Source: Gracilariopsis chorda
Lineage: Eukaryota; Rhodophyta; Florideophyceae; Gracilariales; Gracilariaceae
NCBI GenBank assembly: GCA_003194525.1
Contig: NBIV01000066.1
Span: 62,001 to 126,000, forward strand
Reading direction: 5' to 3'
DNA: 64,000 nt
In this document: positions 28,500 to 56,838 of the stretch, one piece after another
Layout: every line of letters begins with the position of its first letter
Numbering within the stretch: position 1 is the first letter of the stretch
Made by a program: the position numbers and the translations under genes
The notes under the pieces: model-generated
Databases searched by the model: none
Told to the model about the DNA's origin: nothing
The model's input: only the letters and a program-made list of their open reading frames with translations

Positions 28500-28784
28500 C
28501 ATTCTTTGATAAAATATATGTTGCTGTATCGTACGATGCATGAATCTCACCGAATCGGGATCCGAGAAATGAACCGAACGTGGGAATTATCTCCACCATT
28601 GCGGGAGCGGCTGCGCGTAATTGCAGGCTCCGCAGAGGAAGGCTTCCTCGACATGAGGGCGATCCGTTATGACGCGAAAACAACGGAACTTCCGGAAAAC
28701 AAACAAAAGAAACAAAACCTCGAAAGAGGGAACCAAACACAAACCGATTCTAGGTTCTAGGTCTTCAAGGTCGGGAGACGACTT
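28500..28784 (-). mobile_element. leader of a G2-family Gypsy copy
   Basis: The segment from about 28565 aligns with 46220-46451, the region between the 5' LTR and gag of G2: both contain GGAACTTCCGG, GAGGG and AACCGATTCTA in the same order. It is truncated at its far side against Helentron H3. Confidence 0.65.
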
Positions 28785-29580
28785 TGTAGTGCAATGCCCG
28801 GACGCGGGAGTGCACCGAAAGATGTTCGGGATCTTTCCTCGTTAGAGGTCAGCCCAATTGGGTGGAGCCCTCCCATGGGTGGCACGACTATGTCGGGTTG
28901 TAAGGCCGAGGCCGCACGTCGCGACTTGCGCAGGGAGGTCGAAACAATAATCAGGTATCCGCGGGAGCGGTGTGTGGGGTGGGTCATCCTTTGGATAGTG
29001 AGGTTTCCACGTTAGTGGCATGCGCGAACACGAGCCGTGGGTAGCGGGAAAGCCACCCTGTAAACTGAAAACGAAAGGGGAAGCTGAGTTACGAGTTTCG
29101 TGACGAAGACTAATGGCAGTGCCGGTAAATAAACCTTATACAAGGCGAAAACCAAGACAGTTGGAATAAAAATCCGAATACTCGGGTCTTTTAGATAGGC
29201 AAGGGGGGTTAGGCTTTCCGTATGCTACCGTGCTTCCCTCCAAGGAGAAGTAGAGATCACAAGAAGACGGTGAGGTCTAGAGCCAATTCCAGAGGTTGTA
29301 GTCCCTTGTTGGGGAAGATTTACTGGTGCGACGGCAACTCGCCGGCGCACTAAGACTAACCATCCCAGAAAAGGGTGTGAAAATAGTAAATAAAATTAAC
29401 TAAATTACTCTACTTTCGTGGTTCATGCGCACTACTGTGGCCAACCGCCAATATACTCTTCCGTGTGCAATGTGTAAAATCCACCATTAGTGGTCGTATT
29501 TCATGCAATGACTACATTACCGAAACATTCGGGAAATCAACCAAGTAACAAGGATTTTTCCCTGAGGGCATTGCACTTCA
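28785..29580 (-). repeat. 5' LTR of a truncated G2-family element (copy C)
   Basis: 796 bp, from TGTAGTGCAATGCCC to GGGCATTGCACTTCA in plus orientation, the same ends as the G2 LTRs. Clearly the most diverged of the four copies in the window. The leader joins its left side. Helentron H2 sequence (CCTCCTGCCC) begins at its right side. Confidence 0.8.
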
Positions 29581-31984
29581 TCCTCCTGCCCTTTCCCGAC
29601 TGGACATTGAGAATTCATAGCTGCAAGTACTGCAGATGCGTTTTTGCTTGGCAAAGAGACCACCGGAGCGTGCTGTGGAATGAGAAGAATGTCAGGTTGG
29701 GGCGTCTCTTTCCACGGAAGGCATAGCAAGCAGTTGGTTCGAAGTCTCTATACCCTGCCGCCGTTTCAATCCCATTTCCTCAACTTGAATGCCCTCTTCG
29801 TGACGACGCAAGCGTTTATGGACATTTCGTTTGTGAGGAAAGGCGGTCCTTACTTTCTCAGACTTGAGGGCAACGCAGCTCAAGCTCTCCCCAATCAGAA
29901 CCAGAACAACACAAGCTACAGCTGTCTCTGGGGTACCAATCGGCCTGCCTTGGATCCATCTCATCATGAGCACGCCAAACTGCATGCATTCATTCAGAAC
30001 ATCAAATAAAGAGAAATCCTACCCAAGTTGTACGATGTGCTCCAGCCGAAGCCAGACGTGGTGCACAAACGGTAACGATCCATGCATAGCACGCCACAGC
30101 AACAACAACAATAAAATGTGGAGACTGCCGTGGATATCAGCGAGAAAACAGCAGAGTAAAGAGTAGTCGTATCTTACGTGGATACGAAGGAACCCGATGT
30201 GCGACAGTCAGTGCTCCTCATGCAGGTGCAGGCCCCCTCCCTGGAGATGTTCCTGGTGGGGGGCCAACCATGATGAGAACGCTCGTGGTTGATCCGACTG
30301 GCCTGTACCGAGTGGAGTCTCAGGTACCGCGCTTGGTAGAAGGAACCGTAACCAAAGAGCACGGTGCATTGACGAGTGCTGCTGATGCTCTAGCAGGGGC
30401 GACTGCCAATGTTCCAAGCAATGCGCAAGTGCGGTACCGACTTTTAAAACCGGCATCCAAACTTGCAGAAGAAGGCACTTTCCCTCTTCTCTACCCGTAC
30501 CGTGATCAGCACGAACCGTTTGACATCGGCCTGTTTCTGTATGAAAGGAAATCCACAGAGCAAAGGTCAGGACTCAGTGTCAACGACTGAAAGCTCAGAG
30601 AGCTCACCTGGGCTGAGAAAGCGAAGCGTCGTCTGTAATCAGACAACTTCCTCCTAAACAGTGGACTGTTGATGGAGATGTGAATACTCGTCACGCACAA
30701 AAACATTGAGGACATGCCACTACGTTCCCTGGAGAGAGAAAAACAGGCACGTACTATACAAGAGCAAGAGATACAGCAAGCACAACAGCAAACTGGCCAA
30801 GAGTCACCATCCCAGTTCGCGCAAATGGGGCTTATTTTTCTGCCCGATGACTCGATCAACTCAGCAGCGTACTGGAAGAACAAACGCATGGATGTAAAGG
30901 CAATCGTGGCACAGAGAGGACATCGCACTCTTTTCATTACAATAACCATGAACATCTGGCGAGAGAACATCCAGCGCCTTGGGATTGACACCAGAAATCG
31001 TAACGCATTTACGGCACAGAGTACCCGCCCTCGACCGTTTGACCAAACCGCACCTAATTGCAAGGGTGTACAACCAGAACGCCAATAATTTCATGAAGAA
31101 CTCGGAGAGGAAATCGGAGCACATCTTTGCAATAAAATGCTTGGGGTTTGCATCAAAGCTTGAGTTTCAAGAACGCAATGTGCCTCATCATCACATGCTC
31201 GTTTGGGTCGAAGGAGGCGTGATTGAAGACACTGAAGCGATCAACGAACTGATTCGTGAAGAAGTTCCCCTTTCCGGTGAAGACGACGTGTTGCGTGGCC
31301 TTATTTGGTCCATGCAGAGGCATCGCCAAACCCCTTATTGCCGCAATCGCGCTGGGTGGTGCGCGTTTGGATACGACAGCAACATGGTTGTGCCAGAGAC
31401 GTACATTGATGAAGGCAATAATCGCGTGATCTACCGCAGAAGAACGCAAGAAGACCTCAAGATTGCGCTGTACAACCGAACTCCGCCCAGGAAGAACTGC
31501 TCCCATATCAACGTAGAACGCACGCAAGGAGGGATCCCAGTGGCCTATCTGATGAGGTACGCCTTTTAGCCGCCCAAAGCTCAGGAGGTGGAGCTCAATG
31601 TAAGTGGTGCTAATGAAACAGGCACACAAGACGAGCAGCAACAAGAGCGGCAGGCGAGGAATGACATTCGTGCATACATGCGAGCGCGTGTGTTGGGCGC
31701 CGTCAATGCAGCTTGGAGAATTTTTGAGTTTCGCCATGTTTACATCGTACCTAAAGTAGAGTGACTAGCCATTCACTTGGAAGGAGAGCGATCGTTTCTG
31801 CTGAGAAGATAAAACCAGCTTCTTTCTGCATCGCAGCCCTCCACGCTGGAGAGATACTTTTCCAAGGCCCGAAGCATATGCAAACCTCGACTACCTTTCT
31901 TTTTTTGAAAAGGTGCGTTTGTATCGCACGGTTCCTGCACGTTTGCTTAATCAACAAGACGGAAACAGCACTCAGATGCCCATA
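29581..31984 (+). pseudogene. decayed Helentron copy H2
   Basis: It aligns with H1 from about 13438 to 15830. The N-terminal Cys region (CKYCRCVF), TFPLLYPYRDQHEPFD, the MNIWRENIQR Rep motif 1, the HUH site PHHHMLVW and AYLMRYAF are recognisable in frames 29644-30009, 30270-30590, 30714-31088 and 30979-31569, with stops and shifts between. It ends where the 5' part of copy H4 begins. It keeps CGA where H1 has the TGA at 14288, which helps reconstruct what happened to H1. Confidence 0.8.
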
Positions 31985-35269: not shown

Positions 35270-35857
35270 ACTCCTGTTCCCTTACAGTGGCCACAAAAGC
35301 AGCCACAGAAGCCACAGCAGCCACAGCAGCAGCTGAATACGACGATCATGCAGTCTGCTGAGTGTCCTGATCGAAGAATGTATCGCTTGTAGTATGCATA
35401 AGATCCCACGGCAGCTTAGGCCTGGAATGATGCAAAGATCCTTGCACGCGTGCCAGGCTTTGAGACGCTTCCAACTGCGGGTCAAAGGCGATGCGTAATA
35501 TGCGGCGAGCACTCACGAACGCTCTCCTCTTGCTCATACCCGGAATGAACAATGAAAATCTAATGGTGCAAGTACTGCGGTTGCGTTTTGCTTGAAAAAC
35601 AGAGCACCAAAATGTGCTGTAGAATGAGAAGAGTGTCAGTATGGGGCGTCACGTTTCGCGGAAGGCATGGAAACGAGTTGATTTGCAGTCTGTAAAGCCT
35701 GAGAACGTTTTCTTCTCATTTCCTCAACTTGAATATACTCTTCGCGATCACACAGGCCTTCAAAGACATGTCGTAGGTGACTGGAAGCGCTCCCTTCTTT
35801 TGAGAATTGAAGGCCACGCAGCTCTTGCTCTTCCCACGCAGAACCGGAGCAACATGT

Positions 35858-36685
35858 TGCGGTGCAATGCCCCAAAGGGGAAAAACACCGAAAGACGTTC
35901 GGGATCTTCCTCTCACGAGGTGAACCCAGTTGGGTACAGCCCTCCCAGAGGTGTCACGGCGAAGGCGGTTTGTAGGACCAGGGACACCTGTCGCAACTTG
36001 CGCAGGGAGGTGAAGGCGAAGAATCGGTATCCGTGTGAGCGGGGGTGTGATCCTCAGTAGAGGTATGTTTCCACGTAAGTGGGGGTGTGTGAGCGGATGC
36101 GCACACGAGGGCCGCGGATAGCGGGAGGTGCTACCCTAAAAAGGGGAAAAAGGAAGGGCGAAGAGGAGGAAGGAAAGACGAAGTGGGTCGCGAGAGCGAC
36201 GAACAGATACGGCAATGCCGGTGGACAGGACTCCCTATACAGGGCGAAACACCAATATGATTGGAACAATTATACTCCCAAGGATGGGCTTCTTTCGATG
36301 TGCAAGGGGGTTAGATGTCCCGTGGTTTACGGCGTTTCCCTCCAAGGAGGAGTAGAGCACGCGCGCAAGCGGCAACAACTAGAGCCAATTCCCCAGGTTG
36401 GGGTCCCTTGTTGGGGAAGGTTTACTGGTGCGACGGCAGTGCGCCGTCGCACTAAGTACTAGCTTCCCAGAAATGGGTGTGAAAATAATAAATATTATTA
36501 ACTAAAATACTCCACATTTCGTGGCAACATCCACTACTGTGGCCAACCGCCAATTGACCCAAAACCGTGTCCCAAGTGTCCATACCCACCATTGTGGGGC
36601 GTAGTTCATATACACACTACACAACCGATAATATCGGGAAAACGATCAAGTACCTAGAATCCCTCCCTGAGGGCGTTGCACTTCA
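35858..36685 (-). repeat. G2 3' LTR (copy A)
   Basis: 828 bp, beginning TGCGGTGCAATGCCCC and ending GGGCGTTGCACTTCA (plus orientation). A 10-bp-stem hairpin GTGCGACGGC / GCCGTCGCAC (36428-36452) and many 4-5 bp micro-hairpins are inside. Confidence 0.9.
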
Positions 36686-36700
36686 TATCCCCCCCTAAGA
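36686..36700 (-). other. G2 polypurine tract
   Basis: On the minus strand the 15 nt immediately before the 3' LTR read TCTTAGGGGGGGATA, a purine-rich plus-strand primer site for an element transcribed on the minus strand. Confidence 0.65.
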
Positions 36701-36848
36701 CGGGAAAACGACCGCGGACGCGGAGGATTCCCAGACGAAAACGGGTGATAAAAGCGCGTGCTCTGTTTCCGGTTCTCCGGTAAATCCCTCTGCATCACAG
36801 TCACCAATCGTAGAAACGACAACAACAGCCACCCTTGACAAGGGAGAA

Positions 36849-38529
36849 ATGAACGACGACAACAATATCAACAACCACAACCAACCTCCGAGGTTTCTCG
36901 GACGATACACCACCTGTTTCCGGTCAGTTCCCCTGTCTCAGGGCGATCGACATCCGGTACAACCGGGGAATATGGTTGCTGCAGCCGACCATCCCTTCGC
37001 ACTACCACCTTCGGTGGTGTCCTCCGGAACCACTCTGGTGTCCAACTGGACAACCTACAACACCCTGGTGGGGCTCAACCCGATGAATCGGAATCACGCG
37101 TCGCGCCTGCGCCTTACCCCGTGGTTTCACCCGGTCGCTGTCCTCAATGAGGGCTTGGTCACCGCTTATGCGGATGGCTCAGACACCCTTCCGGGGGATA
37201 TGCCCAGAGCAGTCACCACATCGTGGGATTGGCGTCACCGGATTGCCATTCCGCGTCACCTCCTCCGAACAAATTCGGGCGAGACCGTCGCTGCGGCGCA
37301 GACCGCGTTGACGCGCATGGCGTACCAACGGCAGAGACGGGCTCCATTCGATTTACCGGTTCCACCGGAGTTTGGCTTCGACGTTAGCTACTTCCGCACT
37401 CGCGGGGAGATTGGGTACGGCGAGAACCTGTTCCGCCTCGAGACCCTCGCTTGGATGAATTTCCCCGCAGCGCGGCAAGAAGCCCTTTGTTGGGAGCGAC
37501 CGATTATTTGGGCGGAGTTCAGGTACCCTTCCCCGGCAGTACCGGTCCAAATTTTTCCAAAACTTCATCCGCTACGAGCGGCGTTGGCGATCCCGATTCG
37601 GGTATTTCATCCCGTATCAGAACGTGGAGATAGAGCGGATTGCGCCGCCTCACCGACTAGGTCGGTATGTAGCACTCCCCGAGTGGTGGCGCTTCCATGA
37701 AGCCTGCCGGGGGTGCTACATAGAACTCCCGCCGGTACTTACGTACCTCGGTTCGCTGCTCATGCAGGATCCCCAGTCGGGGTTGTGGTCCGTAGCGGTT
37801 ACGGAGTGGGCGGCCCGCACTGCGGCTTATATCCTCAACGAGTCGTACGACCAGTATCGTCTCTGGTTCCTTCAACCGCGTGTGTGGGCAGCCATCCGAA
37901 ACCTGGATCTTCGCATCCCCCTTGGGGGCCAGGCCAACAATGAAGAGGTCCTCCAATTACTTGGGTACATCGACAGCTTTAGCTGGAGTGAGGTCCCACT
38001 GGAGCAAAGCAGTCGTCTGGATGGCGGCAGCGGTAACACCGGTGGTCCGGGACTCGGTAGAAACACCGCCCTTGCGGGGGATTTTATCTACTTCGACCCC
38101 TGGGAGTTCCGGGAAATTTCCTCCGAGGAGGCGCGCGAGCTTCGCGATGCGCCCCGGCATGTGCCGGAAGACCACTCGGTGGGGTACTTCGATTCTGACG
38201 ACTACTACCGCGCATACGGTGGGGATGACCCAATGGTCGATAACGAACCGGAAGAACCCAGGGAGATGGACGTAGAGGAAACCGGCGCTAGCGCGGAAGC
38301 TTTCCCAGAGGGGGTATCTCCGGCCGAGCCGGCTGCTGACCCTTCGGCGGCGAGTGCCGGACCGTCTATCCCCAGCGGGGTGACAGCGTATGAAAACGAG
38401 ATCATCGCACGTTTTCTCCGGGGTGCCGGTCTGAGCGCTGCCGAGGTATCGGGGGATGTCACCACCATGGCGGACGCGTTGGCCTACCGCCTCGCTAGTG
38501 GTTACGCCCCGGACGATGGGGGTGAGTGA
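36849..38529 (+). CDS. antisense accessory gene of G2 (frame broken once)
   Basis: It lies on the strand opposite to gag-pol, between the 3' LTR and the chromodomain gene. The first frame runs 36849-~37540, the second ~37540-38529, joined by a single-nucleotide shift near 37530. Together they encode about 560 residues. The N-terminus is Asn/Asp-rich, the middle is Trp/Arg/Tyr-rich (WAEFRYPS, RYERRWRSRFGYF, PEWWRFHEACRGCY), then a Leu-rich helical part. The tail is acidic (DDPMVDNEPEEPREMDVEE) followed by an Ala/Ser/Pro-rich linker and a final helical segment. AATAAA follows at 38617. I recognise no family. Antisense extra ORFs at this place are known in some plant Ty3/Gypsy lineages, but I see no sequence link. 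Being uninterrupted over ~1.7 kb except for one slip argues that it is a real coding region. Confidence 0.65.
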
Positions 38530-38616
38530 AACCTCTAGTCCAGTTTCCTTGTTCTTCTTTCCCTGGCTATGCCAGTTAGTGTAGTGTAGTATTGTGGGGA
38601 GCTAGCTGCTCCCTTG

Positions 38617-38622
38617 AATAAA
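38617..38622 (+). terminator. polyadenylation signal of the antisense accessory gene
   Basis: AATAAA lies 88 nt after the plus-strand stop, in the gap before the convergent chromodomain frame (stop at 38721 on the minus strand). Confidence 0.5.
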
Positions 38623-38720
38623 CTTTCCCGTTTAGAACGGTGCTTCTCGGTTCAGTTCCCCGTCTTCGACGGACCTTGCCTTGTTATCCTTTGCTATCGC
38701 TCTCCGCTCGCGCGGCAACG

Positions 38721-39836
38721 TTACCCAACTTGGTTATTAACCAGCGTGGCTGAGGCTGCAGTTCCGGTTTGACGGTGGTATCGCAGGACCTGCGACCGTG
38801 GGAGGTGTTCAATTGGCTCCCATGTATCCCCACTGGGGTCGTACCCGTACCAGCGGACGCGGTATTGTAGAATACCATTCTGGTCCCAGGTGTGTCCGAC
38901 AAGTCGGTCTACTACGAACTCTCGTTCGTAGACCTGCCGGCCGTGGCGGGTGGTGGTTGTACTCCCTTGCGGGGGCTGCCCGCTGTGCGGTATAATGTCC
39001 CTTAGCAGGGTGTTCGGCGATAACTCCGGCGTTGCCGTGCGCTGTGATAGCGGCCGCTGCTCATGCGGGAAGATATCCCTCAAGAGGGTGTGTGGTGCAA
39101 CGGTTTTCATCGGTAAGTCATTCCCCATTGGGGCAGGTTCATTTCCGCTTTCGCGATATTGCGGGCGAACCGCCAGTTGGCGGGGGACTTGGGCTCCGCC
39201 TTCGCGGTTCAGCTCACGAACCACGAGTTGGCGGGAAGATGACCGCTCCTGCGGAATCGGCATTTCCACAATCCCCTGGGGGGTCCCGTGCGACACGGTG
39301 ATTGGGTGGCAAACCGCCTCCCTGCCAGGCGCACGAGCGCTCTGCACCATACGTTCCGGCGTTGCCATGGTGTCCCCGGCTACTGACGGGTTGCCTGGGG
39401 CTAACTCCGGTACCCCGGTATTTTGGTCAAAATTCCCCTTTGGGGGGTGCCGGGCAGGTGCCGATGACACCCTTTTCAGGGGCTTGGACGCTAAGTGCGG
39501 TGCACCGTCTCCACGCGGAGGAGCAGCGTCCGGTATGACCGGTTTCGAGCGTGCGATGGCGTGCGCTTTTTCAGAGTTCCTCGGTTCTTCCCCGCAGCGT
39601 TGCGGGAGGTGGCGCAAATTATTCCCCGGAACGAGGGCTTCAATTCCGTCGACGACGGGAGGTGTTTCCGGCGCTTGCGGGTCAGGGCCTGAAGCTTCGG
39701 CTGCGGCTTGGCTGCCATGTTCCCCAGGTTGGGTGTGGGGATTTCCCAGCGGCGCTGGTGTATCTGGGCGCCTCTTCTCCGCAAGGCGCGGGTCTGATCG
39801 ACCTGATTGAACCGCTTCCGCGGGGACTTCCGCCAA
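38721..39836 (-). CDS. G2 C-terminal Pro-rich region with chromodomain
   Basis: 371 codons on the minus strand. The first ~290 residues are Pro/Arg/Glu-rich and low in order, with two copies of an HTLLRDIFPH/NTLLRDIIPH motif. Residues ~302-360 are a chromodomain: VYEREFVVDRLVGHTW, then YRVRWYGYDPSGDTWEP and HLPRSQVLRYHR, with the aromatic residues of the methyl-lysine cage visible. In chromoviruses this domain ends the integrase and steers integration to marked chromatin. Here it is in another frame than the integrase that stops at 40229, so a shift or a separate product is implied. Confidence 0.8.
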   Translation of the reverse strand: MAEVPAEAVQSGRSDPRLAEKRRPDTPAPLGNPHTQPGEHGSQAAAEASGPDPQAPETPPVVDGIEALVPGNNLRHLPQRCGEEPRNSEKAHAIARSKPVIPDAAPPRGDGAPHLASKPLKRVSSAPARHPPKGNFDQNTGVPELAPGNPSVAGDTMATPERMVQSARAPGREAVCHPITVSHGTPQGIVEMPIPQERSSSRQLVVRELNREGGAQVPRQLAVRPQYRESGNEPAPMGNDLPMKTVAPHTLLRDIFPHEQRPLSQRTATPELSPNTLLRDIIPHSGQPPQGSTTTTRHGRQVYEREFVVDRLVGHTWDQNGILQYRVRWYGYDPSGDTWEPIEHLPRSQVLRYHRQTGTAASATLVNNQVG

Positions 39837-40228
39837 CGGGGGCTTCGAGGCATCGCCCTGCTCAGGGGATTGAGGGCAATCGTCGCCGTACTCCCGTAAC
39901 GGGGATCCCTCCCTGACAGGGGTGTGCGGTAGCTGCGTTTCAACTTCCCGTTACGAGGGCGATATCGTTCCTCGAAAACGAGTGTTCTCCTCCCCCTTCT
40001 TAGACGGAGCGGCGGGATGAGGGATAACATTCCCCGCCTGGCGGGTGTAAATTCGCGCCAAGGGGGCGGGCACTGAGAGGCCCGAATTAGCCGGCTGAGC
40101 CGGTGAGTCCGACAGGGTCAGTTGGTCTGAGAGTCCCCGGCTGGGGTGTGGTAGTACCCTAGGCCTAGTACTCCCAGAGGATTCCGGTGTTGCAGAGTCC
40201 GTAGAAGCGGGATGTTCTGAATCCAGGA

Positions 40229-41652
40229 TTACCTCTGAGGAGGGAGGGGGGCGAGTACGACACGATCGCGGGAGATCGGCTCGTGTGCTCCACCTATCTC
40301 TACAACGGCAGTGTCGGCATTAACAGAGATGACCTTGAAGGGTCCGTCCGCCACAGGCGAGAGTTTGTGACAGTTCTCGCCTTCCGGGTTGTAGTACTCG
40401 TTCCTGATGAACACGTAGTTTTTCGCCCGAATCGGGGACGGTTTCCCTCGCAAGCAAGCATCAAAATCCCGCTTGTAAGCAGCTTGGGCCCGTGCCATAG
40501 ACTTCCGCGCAGCGGGGACCAGCTTGGAAAGCCATTGCTTCCATTGCTGCCGGTAGATACCCACTGATGGGAAATTGTCCAAGGTAGCTTGGGGTTCCAG
40601 CGCCACAGGCGGGGGTGTTCTAGATAGAACCAACTTGAATGGCGAAACTCCGGTAGTCCGGTGTACCTGCGTATTGTACGCGTAGGTTACCGCATCAGCG
40701 TACATGTCCCAGTTCTTTGGGTGGTCTGCGATGTAGGAACGTAACGCCGCGAGTAACGTCCGGTTAAACCGTTCAACTTGCCCATTACACTGGGGGGGTG
40801 GTAGGTAGTCGTGAACAAGTTCTTGACATCCAGGATGCGACAAACATCCTGGAAGAACTTGCTCGCGAACTGTTTCCCGTTATCGGAGAGCACCTCCACA
40901 GGGGGACCGTAGACGAATATCCAGTGCGTCACCAGAGCCTGGGCCACCGTGAGAGCGGTTATCCTCCGAAGAGGGACAGTCCGTACCAGCTTAGAAAAGC
41001 GGTCGGTAATGACAAGTAGAAACTTGTTTCCACGTTTCGTGGTGACTAATGGTCCGAGAATATCGATCGCGATAAACTCGAGTGGCGCCCTTGCGGGGAA
41101 TAGTTTCATCTTCTTCGCATTTTTGCGGAGCTTGACGCAATTCTTCGCGCATTCGCGACAGAACCGCACAGTTGCGTAGCAATCCACCGCCATGGCGGGC
41201 CAATAGAAATCCCTTCGCAGGGTTAGGTAGAGTTTCCTCCCACCTGGGTGACCTCCAATGGGGGCGTAGTGTGATAGATGTAACACCCGCGACTGCAGGG
41301 AATGAGGTACCACAATCTGTGGGCGGGCTTCGACCTTCCTTACGAGGTAGCCTATGTCGTTTACGCCGAAAGGGAGATCTTCACCACCGTTGATACGGGC
41401 ACGAATCCGCGTACAGAATGGGTCACCGAATTGTTCTCGGATCATTTCTTTCGGTGATACCGGTACAAAGTTTCCCAGTAACGGGTTCTCAGATTCATCT
41501 CGCGATGCGAGTAGTTCGTCAAAGTCAGCATCCTCGTCCCAGTTTTCTGGCCCAGCCTTGACGGCACATTCCGGATTATCCGGGTCTATGGCCATGAAAC
41601 ATGGGACTTCATCATCCTCCGTTGGGAGTGCTTCCCCACTTGTGGGTAACCG
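40229..41652 (-). pseudogene. G2 integrase
   Basis: Minus-strand frames 40687-41595 (open from the TAG at 41653) and 40229-40843. The HHCC zinc region is present (HLSHYAPIGGHPGGRK, then FCRECAKNC). First catalytic Asp is in FIAIDILGPL, second in EVLSDNGKQF, and the Glu in NGQVERFNRTL. A frame change lies in a run of seven G (plus strand) near 40793-40799, just before the Glu. After it the C-terminal part includes PFKLVLSRTPPP and GPFKVISV. All catalytic residues exist, so one homopolymer error would make the difference. Confidence 0.85.
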
Positions 41653-43296
41653 CTACAAGGCGTCGGCTTGGGTGTTCTGCGCGCTCTTTTTTATAAATGA
41701 CTTGAAAGTCATATTCCGCGAGGCGGAGTCTCCAGTGAGGCGTCCCGACGGGTCGGAGATATTCATCAACCACCTCAATGAGGAATGATCCGTGTACACG
41801 GTGAAGTGAGTTCCCATAAGGTAGGGGCGCAGAGTGGTCATCGCCCATACGACGGCGAGGCACTCTTTCTCCGATACGGAGTAGTTCCGCTCATGAACAT
41901 TGAGCGAACGTGACCAATAACCAATTGGATGTCGTTCCCCCTCGGGGGTGGTTTAAAAAAGAGCACACCCGACTTGGTATTCGCTCGAGTCCGTATCTAC
42001 GGAGTATGGCAACCCAAGTTTTGGGAGATGTAGGATTGGTGCTGATGTGACAGCCTCCTTCAAGGATTTAAAAGCTTCCGATTGCTCGGGCGTAAATGTT
42101 CCCAGTTTTGGGGAGTTCCCCTTTCGCAACAACGCGTTTAGGGGCGCCGCAGTATCCGAAAAGTTCGGGATAAACCGTCCATAGACGTTGACCAGCCCCA
42201 AAAAGGAGCGCAGTTCCGTTTGAGTACGGGGTTCTTTCGCCTCAACGAGGGATTTGACTCGAGCTTTCTCGATCGCTAACCGTCCAGGACGGATAATGTG
42301 ACCCAGATACTTCACAGTATCTGTGAAGAACTCGCATTTCCTCAACTTGAGGGTAGTTCCCACATCGCGGAGTACGGTCAGCACGTCTCGGACGTGAGTG
42401 AGATGATCGTCCAACGAGTTGGAGAAGATGGTAATATCATCAAGGTAGACCAGACAGCTCCGTCACTTAAAGCGGTTGAGTAGAATATCTACTGCACGCT
42501 GAAAGGTGGCGGGGGCGTTGGTTAACCCAAATTGCATCTGCTTGAAGCGGTACGTTCCCGCGTGGCAGGTGAATGCGGTTCTGTCGCGATCCTCCTGTCT
42601 GACAGGTACTTGCCAATATCCCCAGTTGGCATCGAAGGCCGTGAACACGGTGGCGTCTCCAAGGGAGTCAATGCACTCGTCCATACGAGGGATAGAGTAC
42701 GTGTCCCTAACGGTCACGGCATTGAGCCGGCGGTAGTCGACACAGAACCTCCAGGTTCCGTCGGCCTTTAAAGCCAGTACAACTGGGGATGCCCAGGGTG
42801 ATTGAGCGGGCTCAATCACACCTGCGCGGAGCATCTTGTCTGCTTGGGACTGCTCCTCTTCCCGAGCTTTCGGACCTGCCCTGTAAGGGGGTTGTGCAAC
42901 CGGTCGCGCACCGGGGATTAAATCGATCCGGTGTTCCGTTGCGTTAATCTCTCCAAGCGAGCCATCCCACAATGTGGTGAATTGCCGTAACATGGTACGG
43001 AGTTTTTCGCAGTGCGACTCTGGCACGTGGCTAAAGTCCAGCGCTTCAAGTGCCTTTTCCGGATCAATCCGGTCGTTGCTCGATGGAGCATTGTCCTGTG
43101 GAACAGGTGTGGTTCGCAATTCCGAGTTATTTGGTATGTTCGACGCTGAAGTAGCGGTTTCCTCCCCCTCCTTAGACTTGACGTCTTCGGAAGGCGGGGC
43201 GAACTCCTCAGAAGAGGTGGTTACTCCGGGTACATCGGCGTCTGTCATCTTTGTTGGCAGCATTCCCATAGGATGGGGGGTTACACTCCCAATTAC
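41653..43296 (-). pseudogene. G2 reverse transcriptase and RNase H
   Basis: One frame from 43296 down to 41653, broken by TGA (42463-42465) and TAA (41953-41955) and closed by TAG at 41653. RT motifs: SPWASPVVLALKADGTWRF, FTAFDANWGYWQV, FGLTNAPATFQR, and the catalytic YLDD just after the TGA. RNase H shows VDTDSSEYQVG, then ECLAVVWA and YTDHSSLRWL. The TGA sits where a Trp or Arg is expected, the TAA where Gln fits, and the TAG where the Ser of ADALSR is usual. Every domain is otherwise well kept. Confidence 0.85.
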
Positions 43297-44163
43297 TTAG
43301 TGTTTTACCAGATACTGGGGTTGTTTGCCAAGGTTGGCAACCAATATCCGGAAAGGAACATCCGGGGAAATGGAGAAAATTCCATTAGCCAGCGCCAGCT
43401 GGGATTTCTCGTACGACGAGGCGAGGGGTTGTATAACCCGAAGACCGTGTTGACGGGAATTTACATGCACCCAGACTTGGGACTCAGCCGGTATAGAAAC
43501 CGAGGCAGCGACGCCGAGCTTGGTGGACTCGCGGGACGCGGGCGGTGGTTCCTGCGCAGCAGGGAGCGGAACTTGTTTCCGAGAGGACCGCTTTAGCGGG
43601 CGGCGAACAATGGGAACCGACGATCCGTCGTCCAGTTCTACACGCCTGAGGCGGGGCCTGATTGCATCGACAAATCTGTCGCAGTAATCACATCCCAGTC
43701 TGACTGGTGCTGCCAATGAACGGCAAACGATGAAGTCCAACTTCACCACAGAGGTACCAAGTCTCACGACGAGGTCCACTGTGCCCACCGTTTGTAACGA
43801 ATTTTTGTTCGCATCCGAAATGTCGGGGACCGCGTCAGAGCGGATACGCGACCGCAAAAGCGGGGGTAACAATGATTCCACAAAAAAGTGGGGGCCTGCA
43901 CCTGTATCCAGGACGGTGCGAAACCTCACCATAAACTGGGGATCAAGGCCAAGGTCGGCATAGACCTTATAATTGCGTTTGGCCAAGACCAAGACTCTAC
44001 CGGGAATCCGGGGATTTTTACTCCGTATCCACGGGCGACGCAACACAACGAGGTGCACAGAGTCCGCGTCAGCGGTGTCTTTCCTCGAGAGGACTTTCAC
44101 CGGGGAGCGAAGCGAGGACGCCTCGGGCGCCAACAGCCTCGTTCTTGAAGACGCCTCTCCCAA
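43297..44163 (-). CDS. G2 aspartic protease region of pol
   Basis: 288 codons. The retropepsin motif is VLDTGAGPHFF (about residue 86 onward), followed by VDLVVRLGTSVVKLDFIVC and VRLGCDYCDRF. The frame is -1 relative to gag and is already open upstream of its first start codon across the gag stop. A TAA at 43297 separates it from RT in the same frame. Confidence 0.8.
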   Translation of the reverse strand: MGEASSRTRLLAPEASSLRSPVKVLSRKDTADADSVHLVVLRRPWIRSKNPRIPGRVLVLAKRNYKVYADLGLDPQFMVRFRTVLDTGAGPHFFVESLLPPLLRSRIRSDAVPDISDANKNSLQTVGTVDLVVRLGTSVVKLDFIVCRSLAAPVRLGCDYCDRFVDAIRPRLRRVELDDGSSVPIVRRPLKRSSRKQVPLPAAQEPPPASRESTKLGVAASVSIPAESQVWVHVNSRQHGLRVIQPLASSYEKSQLALANGIFSISPDVPFRILVANLGKQPQYLVKH

Positions 44164-44180
44164 AGGGGAGACTCCCTCAG

Positions 44181-45660
44181 TTAGTTTTCCGCCTTCGGCG
44201 GTGGGTTGGTTTCCTCGACAACGAGTGCTTCATCCCGTTGACGGGGGTTTCTATCCGCATAAGCGGGGGTTGCAACGGATGGTTGCGTGATCTCCCGAAT
44301 CGGGGTGTATGAAGCTTGCCGCGCACGCGGGGTCTGTGGTAGGGCATGGGAAAAGTCCGTTTTAGCACGGAGGTAGGAAGCCGTCGGGACGGAGCGTTTC
44401 TCCTCTGGAGTGAGGGCCTCATAATTTGCCACCACCTTGGCCATATCCTTCAGTGAACAAATACAATGAGGGGAGGTATGGCCATGGGCATAGCACAGGT
44501 GGCAAATGAGAGCCAATACCGCAACACGCGGATTATTATTCCGAGTATCGGAGAAGCAAACCGCAGGGCGGGTGTCAGTCCATCCAGGCCGTTGATAACG
44601 GGATTGACCTTTTGAAAACGGGAGTCGTTGGGGTTGAACCCGACTATTACCACCGTACAAAACGGGGTCTTCCGTTCCCGTATCACGGGTCATCTCCGTC
44701 GTTGACGGTAAATCACTGGTGGGTATCGACAAACCATCCTCCTGCACTAAATGCACGGTATCAAATCCCTGTCCAGGGTTCCCATCCGCAGTGAGCGGGA
44801 GTGAGGAAGCTTCGCTTTCTAGCAACAATGCCTTGGCGGATTTAGACCGATTGTTCGGAGTTCTTGCACGAAGTGCATCCCCTTCCGCTCGGGCGTGTTG
44901 GACCAGCTCGAGATAGGTGATCCTCGGCTTTCCCTCCCGATAACGGGTAACTAAACTCCGGATTGCCGGGTCAAGACCATCGATGAACATGGTACTGCGC
45001 TCCCCAGCGGGGTATACGTTACCACATCTGTGGAAAGCCTTGTTAAGGCGAACCGAGTAATCGGTCTCGGTCTCTCCAGCGCGCTGGCGTGTATCTCGCA
45101 AAGCGAGGATAGCCTGCTGAATAGCGGTGTTGGTGGCGTAGGAGCGCAGAAGATACTGCACAGCCTCCGGCCAGCAAGTAACTCCTCCCTCGGAGGCGCG
45201 AGAAGATCCTCTGACAGAGGTGTATTGGTCCTCCGCCACTCCCCGTAAGAAATACGGTAAAGCCAAATAGGCTTGTCCCTCATTCATACCGAGGATATCG
45301 GCCTCCGCTACAAAGCGGGATAGGAAATCCAGTACTAGGACTGGGTCCTCTCCAGTAAAATACTGGTTGCGGAGCGAGAGCTGCATTCGCTTAATGCATT
45401 CTCGCACCTTTCCCGTACCACGGGGCGTGCGTCCAAGTGACGAGTCTTCGAGCCGGTAGTACCGGTATGATAAAAGCTTCCGGTAATCCGGGTTTGTCGG
45501 TTTCAATTCCCGCAGACCGGGGTGTCTTCTCCCCTTCTGGCGGGTTCGAACCACACCTTCAGTGGCCGATGACCGCTTCGAGCGGGAGGAGTAGCCTCGC
45601 TTCTCGTCCTCCGAGTCGGAGTCCGAGGAGCTCGAGCTAACCGAATGGTTTCGGGATGAG
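44181..45660 (-). CDS. G2 gag with CCHC zinc knuckle
   Basis: The frame is 457 codons from a GTG at 45554 and stays open upstream to about 45770, through a Ser/Arg/Asp-rich stretch (SSSSDSDSEDEKRGYSS). The capsid-like part has FTGEDPVLVLDFLSRF, QAYLALPYFLRGVAEDQY and TEDYSVRL-like helices. A zinc knuckle C-x2-C-x4-H-x4-C (CHLCYAHGHTSPHC) is followed by the spacer. Further upstream (45770-46347, minus) other frames hold a coiled coil (ELRILRSEVNSVLESL) that seems to be the original gag N-terminus, displaced by two or more shifts. The stop at 44181 overlaps the protease frame. Confidence 0.75.
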
Positions 45661-46200
45661 TCCGACGATGTCGAAGAATCGGAGTCCGAATATTTTCGGT
45701 GGTGTTTCCGTCGATGACGGCGTTTCTTCTTCCAGCAAGCTGGTCGTTGTGCGATGCCTCGTTTACCGGATCATCCGGGATGGTTTTTCCATGAGGAAGA
45801 ACTGCTCCAGCGTCTCCAGGCGGGCACCAATCCGATCAAATCGGGCTTCAACTCCTTCGATGAAGGTGGCGGGTTGTCCCAAACTCTCCAACACGGAGTT
45901 GACTTCAGACCGTAAAATACGGAGTTCCTCGGCGACCTCCTTTACGGGGTTGCCAGACCACCTCTTGGAGGGATTTTAGTTCCCCTACAAGGTTGTCATG
46001 GGCGGTCCACAGAGCGCGGACCTGGGATTCCAGGGAAATCCCGTGGGGGTGTTATCGCCCGTTCCACGGGGGCTTGAAGCCGCGACAGCGGAGCGGGCCG
46101 GGGTGCCTGGGGCACTGCAGCAACAGCCGGAGTCGATGCTGCATTCCCCTGCGGGGGTGATAACGAGGGCAAAAGGAGGTTCCGGGGTTCCCGGTCGGGG

Positions 46201-46451
46201 TATCATTCCGCGATGAAGCGGCGCCAGTACGGCTGGAACTTGTCCGTATAGGGATACGGGTACGAACCGAACTTCGGAAGTGTCCGCGTTGTCGCGGGAG
46301 CGACTACGCGTAACCACTGGCTCCGCGTCGGAGGGATTTCTCGACATGAGAAAATACCGTTACGACGGGAACGATCACGGAACTTCCGGTGAATAAAAAC
46401 AAACCTCGTAAGAGGGAAAACAAAAACCGATTCTAAGTCAGGAGACCACTT
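46201..46451 (-). other. G2 leader and candidate primer-binding site
   Basis: Between the gag region and the 5' LTR. On the minus strand the LTR end ...TTGCACCACA is followed by AAGTGGTCTCCTGAC. A TGG three nucleotides inside is where a tRNA primer 3' CCA could pair. The equivalent segment of copy C reads AAGTCGTCTCCCGAC. The tRNA cannot be named from this. Confidence 0.4.
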
Positions 46452-47267
46452 TGTGGTGCAATGCCCCAAAGGGAAAAAACACCGAAAGACGTCGGGATCT
46501 TCCTCTCACGAGGTGAACCCAGTTGGGTAGAGCCCTCCCAGAGGTGTCACGGCGAAGCCGGTTTGTAAGACCAGGGACACCTGTCGCGACTCGCGCAGGG
46601 AGGTGAAGGCGAAGAATCGGTATCCGCGTGAGCGGGGTGTGATCCTCAGTAGAGGTATGTTTCCACGTAAGTGGGGGTGTGTGAGCGGATGCGCACACGA
46701 GGGCCGCGGATAGCGGGAGGTGCTACCCTAAAAAGGGGAAAGAAGCGAAGAGAAGAAGGACGAAGTGGGTCGCGAGAGCGACGAGTAGATACGGCAATGC
46801 CGGTGGACAGGACTCCCTATACAGGGCGAAACACCAATATGATTGGAACAATTAGTACTCACAATGATGGGTCTCCTTTAGATGTGCAAGGGGGTTAGAC
46901 TTCCGTACACTACGGTGCTTCCCTCCAAGGAGGAGTTGAGAACACGCGGAGCGGTAAGCTCAGAGCCAATTCCCCAGGTTGGGGTCCCTTGTTGGGGAAG
47001 GTTTACTGGTGCGACGGCAGTGCGCCGTCGCACTAAGTACTAGCTTCCCAGAAATGGGTGTGAAAATAATAAATATTATTAACTAAAATACTCCACATTT
47101 CGTGGCAACATCCACTACTGTGGCCAACCGCCAATTGACCCAAAACCGTGTCCCACGTGTCCATATCCACCATTAGTGGGGCGTAGTTCATATACACACT
47201 ACACAACCGATAATATCGGGAAAGCGTTCAAGCACCAAGAATCCCTCCCTGAGGGCGTTGCACTTCA
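46452..47267 (-). repeat. G2 5' LTR (copy B)
   Basis: 816 bp, TGTGGTGCAATGCCCC to GGGCGTTGCACTTCA in plus orientation. It is near-identical to copies A and D over most of its length. By eye it holds about two dozen perfect micro-hairpins such as CCTC-TCAC-GAGG, CCGC-GTGA-GCGG, CCACTACTGTGG and CCTCCAAGGAGG. Confidence 0.9.
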
Positions 47268-47297
47268 TACAAGACGTTTATATACAAGCAGAATGTG

Positions 47298-47795
47298 ATG
47301 GTGGATGCGAGAGAAAAACAACTGAATGGAGCCACAGTCACCTCTAGAGTTCCAGCAGTTCGCAAGCGCCACTCAGACCAAGCCGTTTTCAACCAAATGA
47401 TGAACATAATAGAAGACAAAGAAGGTGTGTCAACGAAACTTCAGAACATTCAAACAATACTGAAGAAAGAGGAAACGGTTAACAGCATCTTAATGGAGAA
47501 GATAATGAGAAGAAGTAAAATCCAAAACAGCGACAACAGCGAGAAGCGTGAGCAATATCTGTATGATGCTGGAGCCCCAGCAGAGTGGGTAGCACACGAG
47601 GAACAATTACGTCGAAGAAAAGCCGCAGATCAGGAGGAAGCAAGAGCAGGCAAAGAGCCATTGGCGGAAAAGTGGGCGAAACGAAGGAGCGAGTTGCTGC
47701 GCGTGAAAGTAGCGGAAACATCTGCCGAAAAAATGGGTGCCCGAACGAGAAAAAACAAATACAAAAACTGGCAGACCGAGAGCAACGTCGTGTAA
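47298..47795 (+). CDS. unrecognised charged, coiled-coil-like ORF beside G2
   Basis: It starts at an ATG 31 nt after the 5' LTR of G2 and gives about 165 residues rich in Lys, Glu, Arg and Ala. Helical heptad-like stretches (MMNIIEDKEGVSTKLQNIQ and QLRRRKAADQEEARAGKE) are present, and there is no signal peptide. Overlapping open frames at 47585-48097 and 47737-48057 may be a frame-shifted continuation. It could be the end of a host gene cut by G2 or a piece of another element. No function is claimed. Confidence 0.35.
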   Translation: MVDAREKQLNGATVTSRVPAVRKRHSDQAVFNQMMNIIEDKEGVSTKLQNIQTILKKEETVNSILMEKIMRRSKIQNSDNSEKREQYLYDAGAPAEWVAHEEQLRRRKAADQEEARAGKEPLAEKWAKRRSELLRVKVAETSAEKMGARTRKNKYKNWQTESNVV

Positions 47796-48561
47796 AGTTC
47801 TGCAAAGAAAGAAAAATGCAATTCAAAGAGAGCATATTAAAAAGGTTCGTCGGTGCACACGTCAGTTTGGTCAGAAGTTGGCAAAGGGGATGCGTTCAAA
47901 CAGTATTAATTCGCATCAGCACAGCGGAAAGCCAAAGCACATACCTGTATCTTCGTTTCTGTATGCCGCCCAGCTTGTTTTTGAGGTTGTTGGAGACGCT
48001 GCAGACGTTGGGAGCGAGGGTTTTGCCGTGTTTCAAATTACCCCCGCCCCGCTTTGATGGAGGTTCTGGGTGCATGGGAGAGATATTGAGGTTCTAGCCG
48101 TCATCATGAAGCTTGTGCGACGTTCTTCACACCGTTGTAATGAGCTCTCTAAGCTGCATTATTTGTGAGCCGTTTGGAAATGAACGGCTCAATAGAAAGT
48201 AATTTGTCATTTAAATTACCGTTAGCTGTGCCAAATTTAGCCTCTGAGAAGGGTATGGATTAGAGGGTTGAAGGTTTCGCACTGCGGACTTCGCACGTAC
48301 ATTCTGGCATCTATGCCATGGACTATCAGGATAGCCGTATCCTTGGTAATATCATGCGGAGTTCCAACATACCCCAGATAAAATCAGTCCAGGGGCAGGC
48401 CGTAGATGCTACTGTATGGTAAATTCGCCACGCACATCGCTCCCCTGATCCGACGCCATGCAGAATTATGTTGAATCGGAGTCATGTATGAAGCGAAGAG
48501 AGCGTCTTTATTGGTTTCAAAGGTGGCAAGTTTGTTTGCGAATATAGGATTCAGGCGATGC

Positions 48562-49452
48562 TTAGTTGAATACTTCGCAATCCGTAACATTGGCGAGACC
48601 GTCGAAAGCCTGGATAACTTGACGCAAATACGGCATGCATGCGGTTTCTATTCCGGGGATGTTTCCTTCTGTAAAACCGAGTCTTGTCATAATGTGTGCG
48701 ACATATGGACGTCGCTGATATTCGGTGAGCAAGAACTGGTACGTTGTCTCGTAGCGCTCTACCAGCTTCTCTGGAGGAAGCTTGTCTCTACCGCTACCAT
48801 CGCCAAAATAGATCTTATCTGCATTACCCTTGGGAAGCGTTCGGGAGATCTCCACACCATATAACAGTTTTGGTACAAGACACGGTTCGTCGTATCTGCC
48901 TGGCTTAGAGGGAATTTGAGGTTCAGGAAGGCCTAGAACTCGATGCGTGTAAACTCTTTCCTGCTCTTTTCCCCCTTGTTCTTGATTTCTCCGAGATGCC
49001 ACTTTGTCTTGAGTTATCGCTGTAGGTTCGTCTTTAGCACTCCGCGGATCCCTTCTTATGGCAGCAAGAGAAATCAGAGGATGATCAGATATCGAATCGA
49101 TTCCAATGGCATTGTGAAACACACCCCTTGCCAAGACTTCATATCGTAATCTTTCGAACTGCCCCGTTTCTATGCCCCCATCGCCCAGTTTTGCGCGCAG
49201 TATTATACCTCCAGAGACAACCTTCACCCGATGTCGTCCCCACTGACTCGCTGGATCACTCTTATAGACAACAAACAGCCACGCCCATCCGTGCAAATCA
49301 GCACACCTCATGGCTTCAACAAGACAGCCGTTTGCACGCCATGGTTCACCTCCGCAAAGGATTGGTTGAAAGTTATAGAACGGACGTTCGTCCAGGAGCA
49401 TGGCCAACTCGAGGTCTTCTGTCTGGCCAAATTTTTGTAACATCAACAACAT
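48562..49452 (-). CDS. unrecognised protein, 296 residues
   Basis: Starts at ATG 49452. Features seen: GEPWRANGCLVEAMRCADLH, GWAWLFVVYKSDPASQWG, a charged linker with RNQEQGGKEQER, then PEKLVERYETTYQFLLTEYQ and GLANVTDCEVFN at the end. There is no signal peptide or membrane span. A second minus frame (48384-48590) overlaps the last codons and could be the true C-terminus if a short intron or shift is present near 48570. It lies head-to-head with the NSE2-like gene. I do not recognise the family. Confidence 0.5.
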   Translation of the reverse strand: MLLMLQKFGQTEDLELAMLLDERPFYNFQPILCGGEPWRANGCLVEAMRCADLHGWAWLFVVYKSDPASQWGRHRVKVVSGGIILRAKLGDGGIETGQFERLRYEVLARGVFHNAIGIDSISDHPLISLAAIRRDPRSAKDEPTAITQDKVASRRNQEQGGKEQERVYTHRVLGLPEPQIPSKPGRYDEPCLVPKLLYGVEISRTLPKGNADKIYFGDGSGRDKLPPEKLVERYETTYQFLLTEYQRRPYVAHIMTRLGFTEGNIPGIETACMPYLRQVIQAFDGLANVTDCEVFN

Positions 49453-50098
49453 TCTAAGCCTTTACGCCGTCGCCCAGATTGGGATTCAAGAGGTAGCTCT
49501 GCAATACTGTATCCGGAGTCTGTATGTTTCTACCAAATACCTGCGTTGAGTCTCTTCATATAAGTTACGTTCATATTCTTCACACGTCTATCTCAGCCGT
49601 TTAGTATCCCAAAGTTATGCATCAGTGAAGCACGCTGCAGCTAAGAAGTCTTGGGGTAAACCGTTCTCGTTCCAGGAATCGTGAAATGCCAGTCTGACGA
49701 TCGTATGAACTTCAACGGATCATGCACGGCCTTGCGTGAACGGCAACGCAGACCCGGAGTATCTACTACCGAACGTAACTTTACACGTCATGCCTTCACG
49801 CCTCAACGTTATCCTGTCATGCTGTTTGCGGGGAAGGCTGCCGAACTGTGATCTGGACGAAGATACGCCTGCAGGATACCAAATTTTGGTCTACCATTAT
49901 CAATACCCCTGTACCCTTCTGGGTAGCCTGTCACTCGCCATAGATACGTTTCCAGACGAAAATAATACCGAATTCGCGCCAAAACATCTGAAGGGCAACT
50001 CCGGTTTCCCATCAATTTGTACGAAGCTCGAGTATCGTAACGATGCCTTTCCACGACCGCGACGGGTCGGGGGGTCTGTACATCTGCTGGCTGCAACG

Positions 50099-50929: not shown

Positions 50930-51036
50930 AACTTGCGGAACGGATTTCTTAACCAGTGCGAATAAGAGCTGCAACCGGAGGCGATTCTGACAGAGGCAAT
51001 GCGCAAACGAAAAGAACAGAAGATAATCCTTCTTTG

Positions 51037-51635: not shown

Positions 51636-51639
51636 GAGA

Positions 51640-53460: not shown

Positions 53461-53465
53461 CTTCT

Positions 53466-54272
53466 TGAAGTGCAACGCCCTCAGGGAGGGATTCTGGGTA
53501 CTTGAACGCTTTCCCGATATTATCGGTTGTGTAGTGTGTATATGAACTACGCCCCAATATGGTGGATATGGACACGTGGGACACGGTTTTGGGTCAATTG
53601 GCGGTTGGCCACAGTAGTGGATGTTGCCACGAAATGTGGAGTATTTTAGTTAATATTATTTATTATTTTAACACCCATTTCTGGGAAGCTAGTACTTAGT
53701 GCGACGGCGCACTGCCGTCGCACCAGTAAACCTTCCCCAACAAGGGACCCCAACCTGGGGAATTGGCTCTAGTTGTTACCGCTTGCGCGCGTACTCTACT
53801 CCTCCTTGGAAGGAAACGCCGTAAACCACGGGACATCTAACCCCCTTGCACATCTAAAGAAACCAATCACTGGGAGTATAATTGTTCCAATCATATTGGT
53901 GTTTCGCCCTGTATAGGGAGTCCTGTCCACCGGCATTGCCGTATCTGCTCGTCGCTCTCGCGACCCACTTCGTCCTTCTTCTTTCCCCTTTTTAGGGTAG
54001 CACCTCCCGCTATCCGCGGCCCTCGTGCGCGCATCCGCTCACACACCCCCACTTACGTGGAAACATACCTCTACTGAGGATCACACCCCGCTCACGCGGA
54101 TACCGATTCTTCGCCTTCACCTCCCTGCGCGAGTCGCGACAGGTGTCCCTGGTCTTACAAACCGGCTTCGCCGTGACACCTCTGGGAGGGCTCTAACCAA
54201 CTGGGTTCACCTCGTGAGAGGAAGATCCCGAACGTCTTTCGGTGTTTTTCCCCTTTGGGGCATTGCACCACA
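53466..54272 (+). repeat. solo LTR of the G2 family (copy D) with target duplication
   Basis: 807 bp running TGAAGTGCAACGCCC to GGGGCATTGCACCACA, i.e. in opposite orientation to copies A-C. It is flanked by CTTCT on both sides (53461-53465 and 54273-54277). The perfect 5-bp duplication fixes the LTR ends of the family (TGAAG...CCACA in coding sense) and shows this copy is a recombined solo LTR. Confidence 0.9.
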
Positions 54273-54279
54273 CTTCTTA

Positions 54280-56140: not shown

Positions 56141-56838
56141 GTCCAGTACTCTGGAAATGTCCGAAATGATACGGGTTTTTGTTTGCAACGAGCTCAAGAA
56201 CGCCTCTCTTCATCAAAATGTGCTCATGAACCCAAAAGTTGATATTTGTAGACGTCTAGTGCGTGTCGTTTCGCATGAGATAGTAAACAAAGAAGAACTG
56301 TTGTAAGAGTGACTAAATTTGACTAACTTGCACTCGAGCAGCAGTGACTATAACTTTCTGGATCCCAGAAACCTTAGTCACAAATATGCACCTGCCATTT
56401 ACTCTTCTTGGTACCGTTTTAGTTAGAGTTTATGTACAATTGCTAGAATTAGAAAAGTACGACGCCATTCATAAGGCCGTAAGAGGATACGTTGCTGTGT
56501 TTCATGTAAACGTGGAACATTTTGTAACATGCTTGTCAACCTACAAACGTACTTCACTTTCCTGCTGGGGTTCGCAACTGCACTTTCCATATTAAGGGCC
56601 AATATGTACATGAAATGCCCAAGTATCTCCTTCAGTGTACAGAGCCGGTACACGCTTCGTTGACGTAGTTTCTATCGAACTCATGCAAAACGAAAATACA
56701 CTCCAGTTGAAACAACAAAAGCAGTATTGCAACGCCAAATGGAGATGCAATTGGGTCTATTCAGAGAGCTGCTCCGTCTAGCACATTCGACTTCTGCACT
56801 CTAGAAGTTATTACCCTGTGCTGGAATCAAAGACAATT

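Follow-up and report, generated by a model that had tools for sequence, protein, structure and literature searches.

Why would a retrotransposon carry small perfect hairpins, closed by CC and GG, along its whole length? The question is raised by a window of 64,000 nucleotides (nt) from the florideophyte red alga Gracilariopsis chorda (order Gracilariales; GenBank assembly GCA_003194525.1, contig NBIV01000066.1, positions 62,001 to 126,000), which is the whole stretch of DNA analysed here, and within it by a Ty3/Gypsy chromovirus called G2 (positions 35858 to 47267 of the window). The existence of a hairpin signal in this element is well supported, and the hairpins are apparently upheld by natural selection in coding and non-coding parts; the reader of the signal and its purpose are what we infer from them.

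Density, shape and distribution of the hairpins

An initial annotation quoted seven of these hairpins, all of which are present within 3 bp of the positions given, and counted about 24 in one long terminal repeat (LTR), in agreement with the 24 starts found in 35858-36673, one per 34 bp (stem 4-5, loop 2-6, CC start). The 816-bp extent given to that LTR was too short, as the repeat runs to 36685 and not 36673, and its chance rate of one hairpin per 800 bp was too low, as shuffled sequences give about one per 410 bp. Over the whole element, CC-start hairpins (stem 4, loop 2-6) number 248 compared to 27.8 ± 6.0 in 30 dinucleotide shuffles (z 36), about nine times the shuffled density, which bears out the excess that had been claimed. 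Six stretches of the window outside G2 were compared with their own shuffles; five lie at 0.4-2.8 times the expectation and the sixth (47268-57000) at 3.7 times. With stricter hairpin types (4-bp stems with loops of 3 or 4 nt and 5-bp stems with loops of 3 nt), 192 starts are found in G2, about one per 60 nt, and 46 in the rest of the window. As had been proposed, the hairpins occur throughout the element, spanning LTR, leader, gag, pol, chromodomain and antisense gene, and hairpins of five types take up 22% of its length.

The excess remains when the encoded proteins are held constant. A pol piece of G2 has 53 hairpins compared to 6.0 ± 2.5 after synonymous-codon shuffling (about 9-fold), the pol pieces of three other families, A, B and C, have 41 against 4.5, 23 against 4.1 and 28 against 4.6 respectively, and the antisense gene (copy L084) has 33 against 5.5. 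Protein-coding constraint was thus rejected as the cause, because the codon shuffles fall far below the observed counts. Hairpins of the opposite type (GG..CC) are close to the shuffled level, with the largest departures in B (8 compared to 3.9 ± 2.1) and G2 (6 compared to 3.7 ± 2.0), and only 0-2 CC..GG hairpins were found in a Helentron open reading frame (ORF), another Gypsy ORF of the window and two reverse transcriptase (RT) pieces of other clades. Genome-wide, the pattern CCGTCNNNGACGG gave 3017 matches compared to 105 for the reversed control pattern. An artefact of chance or composition is refuted by the dinucleotide and codon shuffles, the near-shuffled level of GG..CC and this genome-wide count, and its probability is negligible.

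The hairpins have exact ends and an exact length. Of the maximal stems (at least 4 bp, loops 2-6), 191 have CC as their outermost dinucleotide and 7-37 any given other one, and total hairpin length peaks at 11-13 nt. In G2 and the three families together, stems ended by CC/GG mostly have 4 bp with loops of 3 or 4 nt (59 and 120) or 5 bp with 3 nt (79), followed by 4 bp with 5 nt (35) and 5 bp with 2 or 4 nt (31 and 22); 6-bp stems are scarce (6, 3 and 2 with loops of 2-4 nt). A Watson-Crick pair just outside the stem occurs in 9 of 162 hairpins compared to 38 expected, and in 10 of 109 compared to 27 in families A-C. On the other hand, 15 of the 16 inner dinucleotides are in use, each enriched 7-30-fold, and the loops share no motif. 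The shape is therefore constant (a 4-5 bp stem, a 3-4 nt loop, a CC/GG base, rarely paired outside) and the sequence is free. Hairpin centres often lie 19-24 nt apart and seldom 25-33 nt (35858-46451 and L085-L087). A periodicity of 20-21 nt was considered and rejected: it was reached in 0 of 400 trials with random placement, but with shuffled gaps in a fraction of 0.075 (period 20.5) or 0.15 (best period).

The pattern is confined to one chromovirus clade and ends with the element. Forty RT pieces were drawn from among the matches listed, and all 34 in-clade pieces (68-84% identical to the G2 RT) have 3-8 hairpins per 901 bp, whereas the count is 0-1 in all six from other Gypsy clades; a few families account for many of the 34 through nearly identical copies, which leaves a small number of independent cases. 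Four further pieces were counted, two from the clade (8 and 4 hairpins) and two of Copia (1 and 0). LTR copies (28, with L001 and L025 left out) carry 14-19 hairpins each. The 1500-bp flanks of these LTRs (n = 56) split as if either host DNA or an element adjoined, 32 having 0-3 hairpins, 20 having 20-30, and four lying between (5, 7, 13 and 14). Within the window, the proposed confinement to G2 held for the most part and failed at two clusters, which contain 24 of the 46 outside hairpins (16 at 53478-54250 and 8 at 28718-29520) and correspond to the following features:

53466..54272, plus strand: solo LTR of the G2 family, oriented opposite to G2, at about 94% identity and with its hairpins retained
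28550..29581, minus strand: old relic from a related family, comprising an LTR and leader piece (identity about 71%), with 8 hairpins left and some compensatory changes

Both clusters being remains of the family, the hairpin scan alone detected them. Relatives were also sought among viral contigs, where one scan gave no pattern match and another gave two matches, neither of them a relative.

Variation and selection

How do the hairpins arise, and what keeps them? Over the pol pieces, identity among families A, B, C and G2 is 64-72% at the DNA level and 67-77% at the protein level, and the alignments are ungapped where families or subfamilies differ in hairpins; the hairpins are therefore not insertions and differ by substitutions. 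This excludes the mobile mini-hairpins once suggested for this locus. Double-hairpin elements and mitochondrial GC clusters are analogues of such inserts, which scattered GC-clamped palindromes resemble superficially, but the inner sequences also vary from hairpin to hairpin, and insertion of mobile hairpins into the element is barely credible. Hairpins occur at the same place in different families more often than expected from shifted alignments: 12 of 51 between G2 and A (0.41 expected), 6 of 53 between G2 and B (0.22), 13 of 51 between G2 and C (0.12), 5 of 39 between A and B, 6 of 38 between A and C, and 2 of 22 between B and C (0.09 expected for each of the last three). Compensatory changes are seen at a site encoding YRFKR, where G2 has CCGCT-TCA-AGCGG, A has CCGAT-TCA-ATCGG and C has CCGTT-TCA-AACGG; B has TCGCT-TTA-AGCGA, in which pairing is kept and the CC/GG base is lost. 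Three more double changes were seen by eye in the non-coding LTR, against the old relic (CCC..GGG to CCT..AGG, CCGAT..ATCGG to CCGAA..TTCGG, CCCA..TGGG to CCGA..TCGG). Overall identity to the relic is 0.77 in stems, only a little above the 0.73 found outside them and the 0.64 of loops.

Evidence of selection comes from variants among 30 copies over a 3.8-kb pol region, with stems defined in one reference copy and five references used in turn. Singleton variants are as frequent per site in stems (0.078-0.091) as outside (0.061-0.077), whereas variants common to at least three copies are depleted about 3- to 5-fold in stems (0.013-0.024 compared to 0.065-0.069; Fisher p 1e-4 to 4e-7, values that are optimistic as the copies are mutually related). 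Chance inverted repeats with loops of 8-24, used as control, showed no depletion of shared variants (0.055-0.085); hairpins of equal size with other starts showed little with three references (0.052-0.062) and some with L042 and L032 (0.031 and 0.037), and GG..CC hairpins, with 1-3 shared variants, form too small a set to weigh. Similar results were obtained in the LTRs, where few control repeats exist, with shared variants at 0 of 120-136 stem sites compared to 22-25 of 679-695 elsewhere (p 0.016-0.028); the two LTRs of G2 itself are identical at 158 of 160 stem sites and 542 of 580 outside. Mutation cold spots were rejected because singletons strike stems at a normal rate. Since singletons are normal in stems and shared variants depleted, the hairpins of G2 are protected during replication of the element and not after insertion. 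Read most simply, inserted hairpins mutate at the normal rate, and an element whose hairpins are broken has fewer descendants. The data support selection on hairpin structure.

A mutational origin was the main competitor to selection, the initial annotation having raised a process that keeps making palindromes. In its specific form, the reverse transcriptase of the clade would have a mutational habit, in which fold-back template switching makes and heals short palindromes without benefit to the element. Template switching is on record as able to create and maintain hairpins (PMC8794818), and restriction to one clade is compatible with an element-encoded cause. In addition, the hairpin at alignment columns 3592-3604 (L031-L060) differs between subfamilies, existing in two versions that are reverse complements of each other, CCCTGCGAAGGG and CCCTTCGCAGGG, each in 13 copies, and one copy has both arms changed (CCCT-TTC-AGGG against CCCC-TTC-GGGG). 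However, same-place hairpins summed over the six family comparisons comprise 177 identical and only 10 compensatory stem pairs at 64-72% nucleotide identity, whereas under healing, reversion of a change and its transfer to the opposite arm should be about equally frequent; the scarcity of co-varying pairs therefore disfavours repair by template switching. Hairpins of minority copies at columns 110, 360 and 1190 lie a single substitution away from the majority sequence, and the CC/GG clamp, the 11-13 nt ruler and the avoided outer pair are left unexplained. A palindrome-making process is thus disfavoured by normal singletons, depleted shared variants and kept stems that are mostly identical, and the template-switching version of it is unlikely.

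The same variants bear on selection acting on the integrated, double-stranded DNA, by which dyads in non-B form would draw chromatin or centromere factors or evade silencing by small RNA. Short dyads are described at several centromeres (PMC9070824), G2 encodes a chromodomain, and the common 19-24 nt centre distances fit such a reading. Nevertheless, copies are scattered (34 contigs hold the first 100 of the 282 listed genome matches of one family hairpin), the other window repeats examined lack the pattern, and beyond nearest neighbours the period of 20-21 nt loses significance (p 0.075). Insertions also seem unprotected, because stem singletons are normal and the old relic is poorer in hairpins (9 compared to 19-21 in young LTRs). 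This explanation is very unlikely.

In the integrase region of copy L042, translated by eye, a hairpin CCCGAAACTCGGG coincides with a change from HYAPIGG to HYPKLGG near the zinc-binding region, as if a hairpin had been gained at the cost of amino-acid changes.

Anatomy of G2 and its copies

In G2, RT, RNase H and integrase follow one another in Gypsy order and are accompanied by a chromodomain and LTRs, as in chromoviruses. Its parts in the window are:

35858..47267, minus strand: Ty3/Gypsy chromovirus G2, recognized by its 192 hairpin starts and by Pfam RVT_1, RT_RNaseH_2, Integrase_H2C2, rve and Chromo on the minus strand
35858..36685, minus strand: low-coordinate LTR, the 3' LTR in element sense, hairpin-rich (alignments, and TG..CA ends visible in the sequence)
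36686..36698, minus strand: candidate polypurine tract, sense TTAGGGGGGGATA
36699..38529, plus strand: antisense accessory gene, hairpin-rich, in two overlapping frames in the window copy (ORFs and copy comparison)
38721..39950, minus strand: C-terminal frame with the chromodomain (PF00385)
40229..41652, minus strand: integrase region in two frames, with Pfam matches in frame 40687-41652 (PF17921, PF00665)
41953..43296, minus strand: reverse transcriptase and RNase H, in two frames in the window copy (PF00078, PF17919)
44181..45770, minus strand: gag-like ORF with an N terminus rich in serine and arginine, 28 hairpins and a CX2CX4HX4C knuckle seen by eye
46429..46448, minus strand: candidate primer binding site, sense TGGTCTCCTGACTTAGAATC, proposed from its position and TGG start
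46452..47267, minus strand: high-coordinate LTR, the 5' LTR in element sense, hairpin-rich (alignments)

The gag-like ORF gave no Pfam match at 1e-3, with weak ones only at 0.043 and 0.78. The antisense gene has an open frame of 609 amino acids in many copies (114 scored); its protein gave no PDB match and no Pfam match above the cut-off (DUF6220 at 0.093), and its five homologues comprise two named ones from Gracilariopsis chorda and Gracilaria domingensis and also metagenome proteins. Named homologues of pol are likewise few, among them Agarophyton chilense proteins. In the assembly scanned (91.3 Mb, 1081 contigs) at least 139 matches to the G2 RT have 92-95% amino-acid identity, the window copy not counted, which corresponds to well over 100 copies.

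The window copy is probably a recombinant, because it lacks a target-site duplication (the flanking 5-mers compared by eye, CATGT at 35853-35857 and TACAA at 47268-47272, differ) and because its two LTRs show, besides gaps, 45 differences over 813 aligned bases. Between copies L032 and L042, over alignment columns 3200-3848, divergence jumps from mostly 0-8% to 14-29% within pol; these mosaic elements were probably made by recombination. Elsewhere in the window, a host-like ORF of 342 amino acids (629-1657, minus strand) may encode a secreted protein.

Acting strand, putative reader and known systems

Complementarity of free sequence points to a single-stranded nucleic acid, and because complementarity matters only on single strands, the place of action would be the packaged genome RNA or its single-stranded minus-strand complementary DNA (cDNA) copy. 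Their spread over the whole of G2 is as expected for a signal on full-length genome RNA or cDNA. Either of the two may be the acting strand, and overall a dispersed signal read by a protein is most likely.

It is conceivable that the hairpins work as DNA on minus-strand cDNA during reverse transcription (in pausing, recombination, protection or plus-strand priming) and not as RNA packaging sites. Near-hairpins with one defect bear on this; those overlapping perfect hairpins were excluded, and the counts are sums over comparisons without significance test. Sense C-A and A-C defects, which the minus strand would hold as G-T wobbles, number 86 compared to 31.9 in the control (2.7-fold), an excess above the 1.8-fold of transversions, and strand bias of mutation does not account for it, as shared A/G and C/T variants occupy 65 and 74 columns and singletons comprise 64 G>A and 59 C>T. 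Subfamily mosaics are also present. Loops of 3-4 nt suit DNA hairpins. On the other hand, the excess is strong only in G2 (3.7-fold, transversions 1.8-fold) and slight in A-C (2.1-fold, transversions 1.7-fold), the families share a common ancestry, and an excess of C-T mismatches at the outermost pair in A-C (28 compared to 6.1) is unexplained. In family C, copy L087 has a C-T excess at the two outer pairs (28 compared to 6.7 before overlap exclusion). Strand asymmetry of loop composition is not significant (p 0.09-0.65), DNA folding favours neither strand, and RNA windows of 240 nt favour sense (hairpins form at 0.42 for 76 hairpins, compared to 0.29 for 79 in antisense), whereas 200-nt pieces hardly do (0.35 compared to 0.33). 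Action as cDNA is a serious explanation, if an unlikely one.

The explanation favoured here, tentatively and at somewhat less than even probability, is a dispersed cis signal, defined by geometry, on the single-stranded genome RNA or minus-strand cDNA, bound by a protein of the element for packaging or condensation. The putative binder is a nucleic-acid-binding protein encoded by the element, either the zinc-knuckle protein Gag or the product of the antisense gene; the CC/GG-clamped hairpins would offer it many weak dispersed sites, and its binding may contribute to selection, folding and compaction of the genome in the particle.

Several results weigh against this explanation. No reader protein was found, and the AlphaFold model of the antisense protein was unusable (pLDDT 39.8). 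Loops have near-random composition and no common motif, GNRA occurring in 8 and TNCG in 1 of 125 tetraloops. Third positions of conserved amino acids are only modestly and unevenly more alike in stems than outside (0.67 compared to 0.40 for A hairpins against G2, 0.45 compared to 0.40 for G2 against B). G-U defects, tolerable in sense RNA, number 48 compared to 27.8 in the control (1.7-fold), no more than transversion mismatches (205 compared to 115, 1.8-fold), with 2.2-fold and 1.8-fold in G2 alone. In the RNA folding proposed for this locus, 240-nt windows are stabler than their shuffles (mean z -1.85 for sense, -1.65 for antisense), but hairpin probability in G2 sense is 0.35 compared to 0.40 with shuffled spacers, and real spacers fall below shuffled in seven of eight family-strand sets, the exception being B sense (0.41 compared to 0.37). 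With DNA parameters, real spacers exceed shuffled ones in the two G2 sets (0.63 compared to 0.59 and 0.62 compared to 0.58) and fall below in the other six. As far as these predictions go, the spacers are not tuned for folding, and neither RNA nor DNA folding lends consistent support. The RNA spacer result and the sense G-U counts speak against a simple fold of sense RNA.

LTR retrotransposons are thought to need few local cis signals, namely a primer site, a polypurine tract and a packaging region. In G2, about one fifth of the sequence (22%) is tied up in uniform hairpins that override synonymous choice. The whole element may thus carry a second, geometry-based code of about 190 hairpins, which a protein of the element would read on minus-strand cDNA or genome RNA, a proposal we hold with some reserve as rather short of an even chance. 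If true, retrotransposons would possess a type of distributed structural signal undescribed for them in the literature matches listed, among which no report of such hairpin arrays was found. The array also offers a natural model, since each element has about 190 replicate sites and the genome more than 100 copies; shared variants there reveal selection, singletons neutral decay, and the two can be told apart. The question of dispersed codes for assembly or cDNA handling in retroelement genomes becomes directly testable with short oligonucleotides.

How does the array compare with known systems? G2 shares RT, RNase H, integrase, chromodomain and LTRs with the Ty3/Gypsy chromoviruses (Metaviridae) and differs from them by some 190 micro-hairpins and an antisense gene without Pfam family; to our knowledge, no comparable hairpin array is known in that group. 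Genome-scale ordered RNA structure, in which selection acts on structure over coding and non-coding parts, resembles G2 in this respect, but G2 has only local units of 11-13 nt with spacers untuned for folding. Centromeric DNA, as described in PMC9070824, has dense inverted repeats under 10 bp and short dyad symmetries of similar density, whereas the G2 hairpins belong to one clade, lie in dispersed copies and are apparently unprotected after insertion. Template-switch hairpins (PMC8794818) share with G2 the perfect short stems and occasional compensatory pairs; G2 stems are however mostly identical, poor in shared variants and fixed in base and length, and the frequent both-arm changes expected of such hairpins are not seen in its clade (10 compared to 177). 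Packaging signals of MS2-type single-stranded RNA viruses are described (PMC6281560) as many degenerate stem-loops over the genome, whose spacing is said to matter, with a shared motif in the loop and a bulge. G2 likewise has degenerate stem-loops across its genome, above shuffled expectation, but its loops are motif-free, its constant part is the CC/GG base and the length, and its binder is a proposed one. The array is not classed with packaging signals, because what is constant in it is stem base and length, without a known binder; by analogy, it would nonetheless work most like the packaging signals of single-stranded RNA viruses.

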